Of a DNA stretch of 39,419 nucleotides, positions 9,561-13,904 are shown piece after piece. The notes under the pieces were generated by a model that saw only the letters and a program-made list of their open reading frames with translations, had not been told where the DNA came from and did no database searches. Positions within the stretch are counted from its first letter, which is position 1, and each line of letters begins with the position of its first letter. The translations under genes were made by a program, and so were the position numbers. Source of the stretch: Rhodoferax sp. OV413. GTDB lineage: Bacteria > Pseudomonadota > Gammaproteobacteria > Burkholderiales > Burkholderiaceae_C. Where the stretch lies: assembly GCF_945881795.1 (NCBI RefSeq), contig NZ_CAMCVG010000014.1, forward strand, positions 1-39,419, given 5' to 3'.

Positions 9561-10490
9561 TCAGTGCTTGTGCGCGCCGTGGCCTGTGGAAGCTCCATGG
9601 CCTCCAGCTGCGCCGTGACCTGCCGGCCCTACCTTCAACATACCTTCAAAACTGGCGAACAAGGCCAACTGTTCTTTGCTCAACTTGGCTTCAGCGGCAT
9701 TTACCGCGGCAGCCAGCTTCGCAGCGTGGTCTAACGGCATGCCGGTGGTTTGCAGGACTTTGGCATCTTTCAGGCCATCACCGGCGCAAACCGAGATGAA
9801 CCAACCATTGGTGTCCTTTTGCATCAATGCACGGCCACCCTTGCCCCCCTGGATCCATCCAGCCACGGCATAGTTACCCAGCACCGTAACTGGCGCCACA
9901 CTCAAAGGCGCGTCCGGCCGATCAAATTGCTTTTTCATAACGGCAGCGATCTGCTCGGAGTCCGAGCCTTTAGGAGCAGACGCAGTGCCATGTCCCTTCG
10001 CACCGTGATCACCATGCATTCCGCCTGCAGCCGCACCAGCAGGTGCTGTCTGCGACACCGGTACCTTGAGCTCTTTTTTAGTCTCCACTCCCTTCGCGTC
10101 TTTGAACACGAGGGTGAGCGGGACGGTAGTGTCTTTTTGCAGGGGCAGCTTCAGGTCCATCAGCATGACGTGGTAGCCGCCGGGCTTGAGTTCGACCGCC
10201 TTGCCGGCGGGCAGCTCCAGACCATTGCTGAGGGCGCGCATTTGCATGACGTCGCCATTCATCTTCATTTCATGCACTTCCGCAACGCCAGCCACCGGCG
10301 AGCTCACCGCGACCAGCCGGCCCGCGGATTGTGCCGTCAGCGTCATGAAGGCGCCGGTGGCCTTTTGGCCCTGCACGGTGGCGCGCGCCCAGGCGCCTTG
10401 AACGTCCACCGTCTGGGCCGACACGCCCGCAGACAGGACAGAAAAACCAAGCGCCGCCAAAGCTGCAGCGGTACGACGAGTCGATGTCAT
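9561..10490 (-). CDS. Periplasmic PCuAC copper chaperone fused to a second copper-associated domain
   Basis: This protein probably binds Cu(I) in the periplasm and may deliver it to cytochrome oxidase or an uptake system. ATG 10490 is preferred over an in-frame GTG at 10505 because AAGGA sits 7 bases before it. A signal peptide ends at about residue 25 (VSA/QT). The PCuAC domain (about 26-140) has the copper set H73, M84, H107 and M109. A His/Gly linker follows. Next comes a second domain (about 180-280: SEQIAAVMKKQFDRP; GWIQGGKGGRALMQ; GWFISVCAGDGLK) that I associate with copper-uptake-linked proteins. The chain ends in a His-rich tail. At 309 residues it is about twice the usual PCuAC length. 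It is the last gene of the copper cassette, 17 bp after the ycnI-like gene. Confidence 0.88.
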   Translation of the reverse strand: MTSTRRTAAALAALGFSVLSAGVSAQTVDVQGAWARATVQGQKATGAFMTLTAQSAGRLVAVSSPVAGVAEVHEMKMNGDVMQMRALSNGLELPAGKAVELKPGGYHVMLMDLKLPLQKDTTVPLTLVFKDAKGVETKKELKVPVSQTAPAGAAAGGMHGDHGAKGHGTASAPKGSDSEQIAAVMKKQFDRPDAPLSVAPVTVLGNYAVAGWIQGGKGGRALMQKDTNGWFISVCAGDGLKDAKVLQTTGMPLDHAAKLAAAVNAAEAKLSKEQLALFASFEGMLKVGPAGHGAAGGHGASTGHGAHKH

Positions 10491-10507
10491 ATGAGGGTCC
10501 TTCACGA

Positions 10508-11053
10508 TTAATGGGAATGACCGGCGGCCTGCACGTCCAGCACATCCAGACGCGCGGCGGGGTACTTCAGGCTGTGGGCGTTCTGCCCGGCGGCGGGTAT
10601 TTCCGTCCAGCTATTTGCGCCCTTCACACAGCCCTGCACCACTTTGAACCACATCGTGCCGGGCTTTTTCGGGGTGGTGCCGCGGAAGACGAATTCATCG
10701 GCATAGGCGTCGGGTAATGTGTCATCGGCCGTTTTGGCGGTCCAGGTGATTTCCAACACGCCTTCGGTGTACTTGGTGCCGTGCATTTCATAGGCTTGGT
10801 CGAGCTTGCCCACCTTGGTGCTCAGCGCCCAACCCGGCTTGACCAGGGGCTGCGCGCCGTTGAAGCCTTGGGGAATGGTGACGGTGATGGCGTTGGTAGC
10901 CGCACCCGCGCAGCCGTGCCCCACCCGCAAAACGCCGCGGTACGACGCGCCGGCCGCCGCCGCCTGGTCTTGCAGGGTTACATGCGCAAAAGCACTGCCA
11001 ACGCCCATGGATACTGCGCAAGCAGCTACGAATTGAATAGCAAAACGGTTCAT
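10508..11053 (-). CDS. YcnI-family (DUF1775) periplasmic copper-binding protein
   Basis: YcnI proteins are exported copper-binding proteins in which the N-terminal histidine of the mature chain holds Cu(II). ATG 11053 is chosen because GAGGT lies 5 bases upstream and it places a clean signal peptide (1-23, ending AFA) directly before H24, so the mature protein begins HVTLQ. The open frame upstream of it is non-homologous. DUF1775 follows, with the KPGWALSTKVGKL-like, EITWTA and PGTMWFKVVQGC segments. There is no C-terminal membrane anchor. At 181 residues the length is normal for Gram-negative members. It lies between the DUF2946 and PCuAC genes. Confidence 0.9.
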   Translation of the reverse strand: MNRFAIQFVAACAVSMGVGSAFAHVTLQDQAAAAGASYRGVLRVGHGCAGAATNAITVTIPQGFNGAQPLVKPGWALSTKVGKLDQAYEMHGTKYTEGVLEITWTAKTADDTLPDAYADEFVFRGTTPKKPGTMWFKVVQGCVKGANSWTEIPAAGQNAHSLKYPAARLDVLDVQAAGHSH

Positions 11054-11233
11054 GAATACCTCAAAGAAAAGAGAACAACAAAAATAACGGGGAGGCGTCT
11101 GGCCGCGGCGTTGCAGGCGCAAGCCGATAGCAGACCAACAGGCCACGCGAGCCGGGATGGCCCGCGTCGCCGGTGTACAGCGAGATCGGTGGTACGGATG
11201 GGCCCGTGTCAGCAGCGCAGGCTGCCGCGGGGC

Positions 11234-11611
11234 CTAGTGCAGGCTGGGTGGCCCGCGTGCCGAGGCGGGCCCGAGCAGCCCGGTAGGCAGCGCAACGGCG
11301 TGGGCGGACGGCATAACCGCCGCGGGTGACAAGTGCGCACATGCCGGCAGCGGCTGCACGGGCAAGGCGCCGGATGGGAGGCACAAGACGCAGTCCAGAC
11401 CGTGCGTCTGGGTGCCGGCGGGTGCGATGCCTGCGCTGTTGGTGCTGCCGGCAGCCACCCATTTGACGCTGCCCGCAGTGGTGCAGATCAGCGTCATGGC
11501 CTGCGGATGCACCACCGGCGCGGCCACGGCCACACCGATGGACAGCGCAAACCACACCAGCATCCAACGGACGATGGTGCGTGCTTCGCGCAGAGTTTGC
11601 AGGCAGGACAT
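11234..11611 (-). CDS. DUF2946 family small exported protein
   Basis: The 125-residue product has an N-terminal hydrophobic segment (about 14-30, ending VAAP), then HPQAMTLICT and a CVLC pair (HGLDCVLCLP), the metal-binding-looking pattern of DUF2946 proteins. These often accompany copper transport genes. The function is unproven; copper binding in or at the periplasmic membrane is likely from context. It begins 27 bp after the FAH-like gene and is followed by 180 bp with no gene (11054-11233) before the ycnI-like gene. The copper genes may therefore have a separate promoter there, although I see no clear -35/-10 pair. No good Shine-Dalgarno precedes ATG 11611. Confidence 0.75.
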   Translation of the reverse strand: MSCLQTLREARTIVRWMLVWFALSIGVAVAAPVVHPQAMTLICTTAGSVKWVAAGSTNSAGIAPAGTQTHGLDCVLCLPSGALPVQPLPACAHLSPAAVMPSAHAVALPTGLLGPASARGPPSLH

Positions 11612-11638: not shown

Positions 11639-12634
11639 TTAGGAGGCGACCACGGTCTGCTCGATGGCGCCGAAAACGCTCACACCATCACGGCCCTTCA
11701 CCTCGATACGGATGGTGTCTCCCACCTGCAGGTAGCCGGTGGCGGGCTGGCCGTCTTGCAGGGTTTCCATGGCGCGTTTGTCGGCAATGCAGCTGTAACC
11801 GTGCGGCCAGTCGGTCCCGCTTTTGCGGGCTACGCCCTCGTTGCAGACTGTGCCGCTGGCCAGCAGCGTGCCGGCCCGCAGGCGCCGGGTGGCGGCGGCA
11901 TGGGCGATGAGCTGGCCGAAATGAAAGTGCATATCGGCGCCCGCCTCGCACAGGCCCACTTTGCGGCCGTTCCAGCTGCACTGCACCGGCAAGTGCAGCC
12001 GCCCGCGCAGCCAGGCATCGCCCAGCGCATCGGGTGTGACCACCACCGGCGCCAGCGCGGTGGCAAGCCGGATTTGCACCGGGCCTGCGTGCGACTCAGC
12101 GGGCGGCTGCTGCAGGGTGACCGCGTTGACCAGCGCCAGCAGGCGCACCGCATCCAGCGCACGGTCGGGCGCGCAGGCTGCCGGTACGTCTGCGGCAATG
12201 ACCGCCAGCTGGGCCGAGAAGTCGGGGCCCCAGGCGGGGTCGACGCAGTGAATAACTTGCCGGGGCCCGGACAGATCGTCGCAGGCGACCTCGCTCAAAT
12301 CGGGCGCAGCGCGGCGGCTTTCGGGCAGCGCCTCAGCGCGGGCACGGTAGGCCAGTTCGTCATGATGCAGGTAGGCGCCGCCCTCCAACAGGCGGCAGGC
12401 ACGGGGCAGAGGGGCCATGCACTGCGCCGGGTCAAACGCAAACGCGTGGCGGGCGCGGCCCTGGTTGAGCTGGGTGTAGAGGTCTTGCAGCGCGGGCGAG
12501 AGGTAATTCCAGTCGTCCAGCACCTGCTGCAGGCGGTTGGCAACATCGGTGGCGTAGTGGGCCTGGGTCAGGTCCCGCGAGACGACGACCATCTGCCCGT
12601 CGCGGGAGCCGTCCTGGTAGGTGGCAAGTTTCAT
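11639..12634 (-). CDS. Fumarylacetoacetate hydrolase-fold protein, catalytic metal site apparently lost
   Basis: The 331-residue protein aligns along its length with the Burkholderiales FAH-like enzymes: N-terminal MKLATYQDGSRDG, a middle with TPDALGDAW (200-208), LIAHAAATRRLRAG, and a C-terminal FGAIEQ. These enzymes normally cleave or hydrate acylpyruvates using a divalent metal held by an E-x-E pair and an Asp. Where relatives, as I recall them, read DFEAEVAV, this protein reads DFSAQLAV (S140, Q142). Where they read NDVSL it has NAVTL (A171). The SKPATAF lysine segment is changed to IRLATAL. It may be inactive or have a new role. Start ATG 12634 gives the standard N-terminus; an upstream in-frame extension is non-homologous. 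It shares a 55 bp divergent gap with the DUF3108 gene. Confidence 0.85.
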   Translation of the reverse strand: MKLATYQDGSRDGQMVVVSRDLTQAHYATDVANRLQQVLDDWNYLSPALQDLYTQLNQGRARHAFAFDPAQCMAPLPRACRLLEGGAYLHHDELAYRARAEALPESRRAAPDLSEVACDDLSGPRQVIHCVDPAWGPDFSAQLAVIAADVPAACAPDRALDAVRLLALVNAVTLQQPPAESHAGPVQIRLATALAPVVVTPDALGDAWLRGRLHLPVQCSWNGRKVGLCEAGADMHFHFGQLIAHAAATRRLRAGTLLASGTVCNEGVARKSGTDWPHGYSCIADKRAMETLQDGQPATGYLQVGDTIRIEVKGRDGVSVFGAIEQTVVAS

Positions 12635-12689: not shown

Positions 12690-13904
12690 ATGCCACCCCC
12701 CCACACCGGCACCACGCTGCCCCGCGCCTTTGCCTCCAAAGTCCGGGCCCTGCTGAGAAGCCCGAAGCTGCGGGCCGCAGCCGTGGTGTGGGCGGCAGTA
12801 GCTGGCCTGCATCTGTGGCTGCTCGGCGGACTGGCGTTCGGGCTGCAATGGAGCCCTGCAAACGACGGTCCTCCCGCGGACAGCGCGCCGATCGCACTCA
12901 CCCTCGCCCCGCCTGCGCCGCCCTCCCCTGCGTCAGCGCCAGCACAGGGATCAGCTCCGGCGCGCTCGGCACCAGCCGCCCAGCCTGCCACCGAGCCGGC
13001 CCCTTCAACAATGCAGCCCGCACTGCCCGCCGCAGACCAAGCCCCGCAGGCGCCGGCTGCCGGCTCCCCGCCAGAAGCGCCACAGCCGCTACAGCCCAGC
13101 CCGGCCCTCGAATCTGCCGGCGCGCTTCCCCCGGCAAAACCGCTCCCCGCAACACCGCCCGTTGCCGGCGAAACACCCGCCTTGAGCCAGTCGGCGCCGC
13201 AAGACGCGCAGCCCGCTCTCGCCGGTACCGGCAACAGCGATACCGACCGTCCGACGCGGTTTGCCTTTCCGCCGCCCGTCGTGCTGAACTACGACGTGCT
13301 CGGGCGCATCGACCAGCAGGACAACACGGTGAGCGCCACGATCAGCTGGCAACACGACGGCCAGAACTACCGGGCCAGTCTGCTGATCACCAAGTTCCTC
13401 ATCCACTTGCGGGAATGGACCAGCAAGGGCGCGCTCACCAGCGCCGGGCTGGCGCCATTGCGCTTTGGCGACAAGGGCTTTCGCCGTGCCGAGCTGGCCT
13501 CGCACTTTGTGCGGGAGGAGGGGCGCGTCATCTTCAGCAGCAACAGCACGCCGGCAGCCTTGATGCCCGGCGCGCAGGACCAGCTCAGCGTGTTCCTCCA
13601 ACTCGCGAGCATGTGGGCGGGCGAACCCCGGCGGCTGGGCGCGGGGGATACCGTGTCGTTCCAGTCTGTGAGCGCAAGGCAGGCCGAAAACTGGACCTTC
13701 ACCGTAGCTGCCGAAGAGCGCATTACCGTGCCCGGCGGTAGCCTGCAAGCCATCAGACTCACCCGCGAGCCCGCCGGCCCCTTCAGCACGCGGGCCGAAA
13801 TCTGGCTGGCGCCCCAGATGGCCTATCTGCCCGTGCACATCCGGCTGAGCGAACCCAACGGCAATGTGCTGGACATGCTGTGGACCGGCAACAGCCGCCC
13901 CTGA
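12690..13904 (+). CDS. DUF3108 domain protein with N-terminal membrane anchor
   Basis: The 404-residue protein begins with a basic segment and one membrane helix (about 28-51). A long Pro/Ala/Ser linker (about 56-185) resembles the span of TonB-like proteins. A C-terminal DUF3108 domain (about 190-400) follows, with LNYDVLGR, GFRRAELASHF, GDTVSFQSVSAR and AEIWLAPQMAYLPVHIRL. DUF3108 is a beta-rich periplasmic domain of unknown function. ATG 12690 is chosen because it puts the helix near the N-terminus. A frame-consistent ATG at 12633 with AGGTGG upstream is an alternative, but it would overlap the start of the divergent FAH-like gene. Confidence 0.85.
   Translation: MPPPHTGTTLPRAFASKVRALLRSPKLRAAAVVWAAVAGLHLWLLGGLAFGLQWSPANDGPPADSAPIALTLAPPAPPSPASAPAQGSAPARSAPAAQPATEPAPSTMQPALPAADQAPQAPAAGSPPEAPQPLQPSPALESAGALPPAKPLPATPPVAGETPALSQSAPQDAQPALAGTGNSDTDRPTRFAFPPPVVLNYDVLGRIDQQDNTVSATISWQHDGQNYRASLLITKFLIHLREWTSKGALTSAGLAPLRFGDKGFRRAELASHFVREEGRVIFSSNSTPAALMPGAQDQLSVFLQLASMWAGEPRRLGAGDTVSFQSVSARQAENWTFTVAAEERITVPGGSLQAIRLTREPAGPFSTRAEIWLAPQMAYLPVHIRLSEPNGNVLDMLWTGNSRP

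Follow-up and report, generated by a model that had tools for sequence, protein, structure and literature searches.

Repeated loss of metal ligands and conservation of the N-terminal domain in a fumarylacetoacetate hydrolase-fold protein of Rhodoferax

The gene, its neighbours and its site residues

The window, that is, the whole stretch of 39,419 nucleotides analysed here, is contig C14 of a genome of 2.35 Mb in 148 contigs. A GTDB scan gave Rhodoferax bucti, along with further records of Rhodoferax and of Curvibacter, as its nearest named relatives. On its minus strand, positions 11,639 to 12,634 hold a complete gene (P0002), starting with ATG at 12,634 and ending with TAA at 11,639, which codes for a predicted fumarylacetoacetate hydrolase (FAH)-fold protein of 331 amino acids without metal ligands. 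The 531-aa frame with a TTG start proposed by the ORF finder exceeds the gene, and the orthologues start at MKLAT or MKFAS; an 802-aa ORF of the plus strand runs across the gene.

The commonest neighbour of this orthologue, a gene for a DUF3108 protein, lies divergently on the plus strand (12,690 to 13,904), with 55 bases between the two starts. Downstream and co-directional with the FAH gene are genes for a DUF2946 protein, 27 bases away, a DUF1775 (YcnI-like) protein and a PCu(A)C copper chaperone (9,561 to 11,611, minus strand), which are considered as context only. In most loci with enough flank, whether intact or ligand-poor, the FAH gene is divergent from DUF3108, which is followed by DUF3567 and often by purU and psd; outside the genus, DUF3108 was found within the fetched flank in 24 of 30 low-scoring loci. 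Adjacency to DUF3108 is not a requirement, because DUF3108 is often present without the FAH gene. Joint loss of both genes was rejected, since DUF3108 occurs in 95 of the 103 Rhodoferax-like genomes of our genus set, many of them lacking the FAH gene. At the FAH locus, a second copy of DUF3108 stands next to the first in genomes of the R. bucti clade and in G348 (L202, L203 and L196); the window genome has only one.

PF18288 matched residues 1-78 of the window protein (103.6 bits) and PF01557 residues 117-329 (73.6 bits versus a cut-off of 23.9), which together make up the FAA_hydro_N_2 architecture; among the genus matches listed, PF18288 was not found apart from the FAH gene. The N-terminal domain (residues 1-82; 12,389 to 12,634, minus strand) is conserved nearly as in the intact enzymes, and the adjoining lid segment (residues 83-135; 12,230 to 12,388, minus strand) changes fastest.

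The complete metal site D-ExE-D is absent. At the place of its first Asp, which is present in 31 of 31 full-length intact orthologues of the genus, stands E84 (12,383 to 12,385); the E-x-E pair reads S140-A141-Q142 (12,209 to 12,217) and the second metal Asp reads A171 (12,122 to 12,124). The active-site set of Lys, Arg, His and Glu is also incomplete: the catalytic-type H91 (12,362 to 12,364) is the only residue retained, while the Arg position holds Q175 (12,110 to 12,112), the Lys position R189 within the segment IRLATAL (12,068 to 12,070) and the Glu position D285 (11,780 to 11,782), all on the minus strand. We take these site positions to be those named D126, H133, E199, E201, D233, K253 and E364 in mouse FAH. 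The first-pass annotation had counted four altered catalytic positions, citing S140-A-Q142, A171 and IRLATAL. Residue by residue, these readings were correct on the minus-strand gene, and E140, E142 and D171 are lost (to S, Q and A) with respect to both the intact orthologues and 3lzk, the solved structure of a Sinorhizobium meliloti FAH family protein. The Lys change, however, is mild (K to R189, with the adjoining Pro changed to Leu and the loop before the Lys three residues shorter), and three further changes had been missed: D84 to E, R175 to Q and E288 to D, numbered after the intact G330 protein and corresponding to positions 84, 175 and 285 of the window protein.

The residue equivalences were upheld by sequence and by fold. 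3lzk_A was the sole PDB sequence matched by phmmer at E 0.001; it aligned with the window protein end to end, over residues 1-328 and including the N-terminal domain, and it has the E-G-E, the Asp and the Lys that the window protein lacks. In the alignments listed for a profile of 22 intact proteins, 3lzk, 8gsr and 6j57 kept the same register through E-x-E, Asp and Lys. The AlphaFold2 model of the window protein had a mean pLDDT of 93.7, with only loop 182-186 below 50, and in structure comparison, for which Foldseek was also used, 3lzk came first (Z 48.6, rmsd 1.7, 326 residues, 44% identity). Gaps in the alignment fall in the loop after residue 176, away from the changed positions. Neither sequence nor fold alignment places the acidic ligands elsewhere in the protein. 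From the PF01557 match and the fold matches of the model, the window protein is predicted to be a member of the FAH superfamily with its fold intact. The same may hold for L294, among the most eroded relatives, whose model (pLDDT 91.0) matched 3lzk with Z 42.7 over 310 residues and lacked helices in the lid segment; intact relatives were part of the alignment behind this model, which may favour the fold result. Fumarylacetoacetase (1qcn, 5ti1 and 4qku) shares the fold with a Z of about 32 over about 310 residues at 12-15% identity to the window protein, and is an active enzyme with a complete site.

Ligand loss in the genus and beyond

A match to the FAH protein was obtained in 73 of the 103 genus genomes and none in 30, among them 9 of the 51 good genomes; given these absences and two broken copies, the gene is dispensable. 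Seven of the genomes without a match (G303, G318, G325, G335, G346, G353 and G369; 2.2-3.6 Mb) belong to one rpoBC clade. There are 31 full-length intact orthologues, all with the full residue set at the site columns, and one more intact copy, in G327, ends at a contig end. Full-length ligand-poor orthologues number 33 and come from 32 genomes, G314 contributing a pair. Of the four metal ligands, 20 of these proteins retain one and 13 none: D84 is kept in 0, E140 in 5, E142 in 12 and D171 in 3 of the 33, and K192 in 3, while H91 is kept in 25, R175 in 29 and E288 in 27. Set against the full residue set of every full-length intact orthologue, these losses go beyond what chance would give. The seven site residues occur in 25 different states among these 33 proteins. 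Six genomes (G331, G308, G321, G342, G392 and G396) share H84, H91, S140, E142, S171 and D192, possibly a new site.

Shorter ligand-poor copies with an open frame were found in G324, G374 (contig end) and G287; the last (L180:3905-4699) is a 265-aa ORF with an N domain almost unchanged and a remainder hardly recognisable. The broken copies are those of G343 and G394, and the type of the latter cannot be told. In the single-contig 5.2-Mb genome G343 (L179, G343:C1:2497800-2506830), the FAH gene is split over three frames with its catalytic residues still readable, and the neighbouring DUF3108 match has an in-frame TGA; both may be young pseudogenes or assembly errors.

Four genomes (G322, G326, G333 and G341) have only a paralogue of about 44% identity, a class that is present in 11 of the 103 genus genomes, the window genome not among them. 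No genus genome listed carries an intact and a ligand-poor orthologue together. The window gene is one of many ligand-poor orthologues. A search of its genome for a second, intact paralogue had been suggested as a check: the genome has one match to the FAH protein, no close paralogue and only three distant FAH-family members. A heteromer with a close intact paralogue found no support, with that single match and the paralogue class absent from the genome.

Outside the genus, 97 loci were picked by score (27 high, 40 middle and 30 low), and 67 of them have all four ligands, 3 have three and 27 have two or fewer; as the loci were drawn by score, 27 of 97 is not a frequency. This set includes two loci of the paralogue class (L289 and L291) and five that are cut or split (L271, L292, L295, L296 and L299). 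Compared with the G330 protein, ligand-poor low-scoring loci kept 68-79% identity in the N domain, with the lid down to 13% and the C part to 37%, whereas the intact paralogue-class L289 and L291 had N domains only 51-52% identical.

Ligand loss arose at least twice in the genus. In the rpoBC tree (rpoB plus rpoC, 60 genus genomes and 5 outgroups), read without support values and with G311 and G336 left out of the count, ligand-poor genomes stand in about eight places. An FAH protein tree built without residues 83-196, which leaves out G327, G324, G374, G287 and the paralogues, required 4 changes, at least 2 of them forced by starred branches; here the window protein and G348, the latter on a long branch, fell inside the intact R. 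bucti clade at starred branches. In a first FAH tree with the catalytic segment included, the window protein fell among the ligand-poor ones, which we took as long-branch attraction. A quick family-wide tree (omitting L271, L292, L295, L296, L299, G305, G348, G368 and G374), in which long branches meet, gave 8 changes with 4 forced by starred branches.

AU tests rejected all 33 ligand-poor proteins as one clade (p 0.0037). With the window protein (G000) and G348 removed, the remaining 31 as one clade gave p 0.387, and G000 and G348 as a pair gave p 0.385, so that the loss in these two may be one event. Groupings taken from the species tree gave p 0.025 for G362 with the G373 group, p 0.031 for G309 with G350 and p 0.42 for G323, G329 and G379. 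Eight losses in the genus are a possible reading, with interspecies transfer as another option.

As a side observation, G312 sits among the rpoBC outgroups on a long branch, and G311 and G336 fall into different groups depending on whether rpoBC or the FAH gene is used, with G382 joining them by rpoBC; the placements of these four (L234, L251, L224 and L263, respectively) suggest mis-binned contigs.

Selection along the protein

Pairwise codon-model estimates gave an overall dN/dS (omega) of 0.02-0.06 for 14 intact pairs and, among 16 ligand-poor pairs, of 0.05-0.14 in 13, for which the likelihood ratios against an omega of 1 were 31-206; pairs share sequences and hence are not independent. 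The three remaining pairs were G336/G314 (0.63, nearly identical), G376/G374 (0.21, partial) and G000/G348 (dS saturated). Within the 13 ligand-poor pairs, omega was 0.00-0.12 in the N domain (0.05 or less in 12), 0.06-0.48 in the catalytic segment where unsaturated, and 0.03-0.14 in the C part; the median catalytic-segment omega was about 0.13 versus 0.04. The window gene against G330 gave an omega of 0.08, and its neighbour genes 0.03-0.13 where dS was unsaturated. In the window pairs the catalytic-segment dS is saturated, and every window-to-intact pair includes time before the loss. Since the window-G330 pair spans both before and after, pairs in which both members are ligand-poor are the better evidence: G308/G392, G331/G396 and G314/G314b, with a whole-gene dS of 0.5-1.0, had an omega of 0.08-0.10 overall and of 0.01-0.05 in the N domain.

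Identities told the same parts of the protein apart. Between genomes with an rpoBC divergence of 0.12-0.16 (24 intact and 20 ligand-poor with rpoBC data, excluding G311 and G336 as possibly mis-binned), N-domain identity was 86% for intact pairs, 80% for ligand-poor pairs and 82% for mixed pairs. The corresponding values were 80, 35 and 36% in the lid, 82, 51 and 56% at the site, and 83, 60 and 64% in the C part. The ligand-poor proteins retained 95% of the intact-invariant columns of the N domain and 35% of those of the lid. In the intact paralogue class the order is the opposite, the N domain being least conserved (58% versus 63-67% elsewhere), which indicates that the strong N-domain constraint is specific to this orthologue.

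The metal ligands of the window protein are gone, its gene is under purifying selection and conservation lies above all in the N-terminal 82 residues; selection maintains the N domain, a portion of the core and a large share of the C part. With an intact frame and an omega of 0.08 against G330, the gene does not behave as a pseudogene, and the pseudogene-like evolution that would have refuted the first-pass reading is not observed. It combines a lost catalytic motif with purifying selection as pseudoenzymes do. Judged by its residues, this protein is very unlikely to function by the known metal mechanism. These findings are consistent with the non-enzymatic role put forward by the first-pass annotation, but place the constraint mainly in the N-terminal domain.

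Possible function and known systems

The reading that we favour, with moderate confidence, is that the window protein is a pseudoenzyme descended from a metal-dependent enzyme of the FAH family, a state reached more than once, with a non-catalytic job mainly in its N domain, probably the binding of a partner. The N domain would carry a second, non-catalytic function that is also present in the intact enzymes and predates the ligand losses. In lineages that could do without the reaction, the catalytic half would have lost its ligands and lid, and the N domain and the scaffold would have been kept. The most likely role of the N domain is to bind a partner protein (or a small ligand), with the rest of the fold serving as a platform. 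More tentatively, throughout the sampled bacterial family (Comamonadaceae-type), the N-domain job may be the main selected function, the intact enzymes being bifunctional and catalysis dispensable and given up many times over, with the domain hardly changing. For the intact enzymes, a homogentisate pathway context was rejected in all genomes except G312, the only one of 103 with HgmA (PF04209); given this distribution of homogentisate dioxygenase, they would act outside that pathway in nearly all genomes.

The strongest rivals are a remodelled pocket and slow decay. The first of these, a new or metal-independent activity that uses His91, Arg175, Glu288 or new side chains, is unlikely in our view. 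The retention of H91 (well above the 35% lid average), R175 and E288 in most ligand-poor proteins leaves room for a pocket function, as does the site shared by six species of one clade. Loss of the ligands also need not abolish every family reaction since, in PMC10825186, the tautomerase activity of FAHD enzymes was unchanged by added divalent cations or EDTA. However, the residue set varies between clades, as the number of site states indicates, the window protein itself carries Q175 and D285, the lid changes faster than any other part, and the retention of E288 (82%) is no better than that of an average C-part column (81%). By motif spacing, D171 and R175 would correspond to D102 and R106 of FAHD1, where the window protein has A171 and Q175, and PMC10825186 reports less than 0.1% tautomerase activity for FAHD1 D102A/R106A.

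About equally unlikely is a slowly decaying enzyme gene, in which catalysis has become useless, the gene is on its way out and the purifying signal is a leftover from before the loss. The raised catalytic-segment omega and the long branches do indicate that part of the protein is relaxed, and the genomes without a match and the broken copies of G343 and G394 would fit a gene that is being lost. Against this, the three pairs with both members ligand-poor show the low omega values given above, lowest in the N domain, and the 33 full-length ligand-poor genes stand against three shorter open ones (G287, G324 and G374) and one broken, untypable copy (G394). The broken gene of G343 keeps its catalytic residues, so that decay of the frame without prior ligand loss is possible.

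Two further explanations are very improbable. If the 5' end of the gene doubled as regulatory DNA of the divergent DUF3108 gene, whose start is so close, the N domain might only look conserved; N-domain dS was indeed lower than C-part dS in 11 of the 13 ligand-poor pairs and 11 of the 14 intact ones, 22 of 27 altogether, with a median ratio of about 0.7, and constraint at the nucleotide level may thus add to N-domain conservation in both kinds alike. Nevertheless, N-domain omega is low even on this lower dS, four-fold sites of ligand-poor pairs show no clear difference (0.25-0.30 in the N domain versus 0.22-0.39 elsewhere), and the N domain is conserved in the G331 group, in which DUF3108 lies on other contigs. 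A copper-related role with DUF2946, DUF1775 and PCu(A)C, whose cassette had rightly been noted as lying downstream and is on the same strand, draws on this close linkage and on its persistence in the G331 group, where one of these genes still adjoins the FAH gene, but all three are missing from 13 of the 34 ligand-poor loci whose flank is long enough, many intact loci have them and most loci of other genera do not, so the copper genes are not diagnostic.

The favoured reading, a pseudoenzyme with an N-domain job, has its best precedent in YisK of Bacillus subtilis (8sky, 8sut and 8suu), to which the model aligned from its residue 1 with Z 28.9 over 278 residues. PMC10825186 describes the N-terminal extension of YisK as involved in protein interactions that affect localization, which by analogy makes YisK the nearest precedent for a separable non-catalytic role of this region. 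According to the same paper YisK is an active tautomerase, unlike the ligand-poor window protein. MreB, suggested as a partner by YisK, occurs in 102 of the 103 genomes, and its co-occurrence therefore says nothing. The oxaloacetate tautomerases FAHD1 (Z 20.5), FAHD2 and YcgM have the catalytic core in common with the window protein, but they are enzymes, and FAHD1 is without the N-terminal domain. For FAHD1, X-ray data in PMC8398924 suggest that the metal holds the substrate, and the residue networks E71-R106-Q109, K43-D102-K123 and H30-E33 are described there.

The usual picture of a pseudoenzyme is a paralogue that went its own way after a duplication. In the present case it is the orthologue, at a conserved genomic place, that has lost its site on more than one occasion, with one domain remaining under nearly the same constraint as before. 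The window protein resembles pseudoenzymes in general, as described in PMC10211241, in that the motif is lost with fold and gene kept; it differs in that a single-copy orthologue has been disarmed repeatedly and one domain has stayed conserved. That review makes no use of the word fumarylacetoacetate. Full-text searches, which mostly leave out subscription papers and are thus weak evidence of absence, found no paper that pairs fumarylacetoacetate hydrolase with pseudoenzyme, or with an inactive homolog and metal-binding residues, nor any on PF18288 or its domain name, or on Rhodoferax and fumarylacetoacetate hydrolase. The repeated losses would amount to a natural domain-deletion experiment that marks which half of a supposed metabolic enzyme is needed, and they would open the second function suspected for FAH proteins with an N-terminal extension to direct testing. 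Many annotations as 'fumarylacetoacetate hydrolase family' in these bacteria may not be hydrolases.

Two of the three distant FAH-family members of the window genome have an intact-looking site. The third, a fumarylacetoacetase-like protein (L004, contig C93:5601-6350), does not: by eye, its E-x-E region reads SFE and its lysine segment ARSF, and the Asp (VNDW) is kept.
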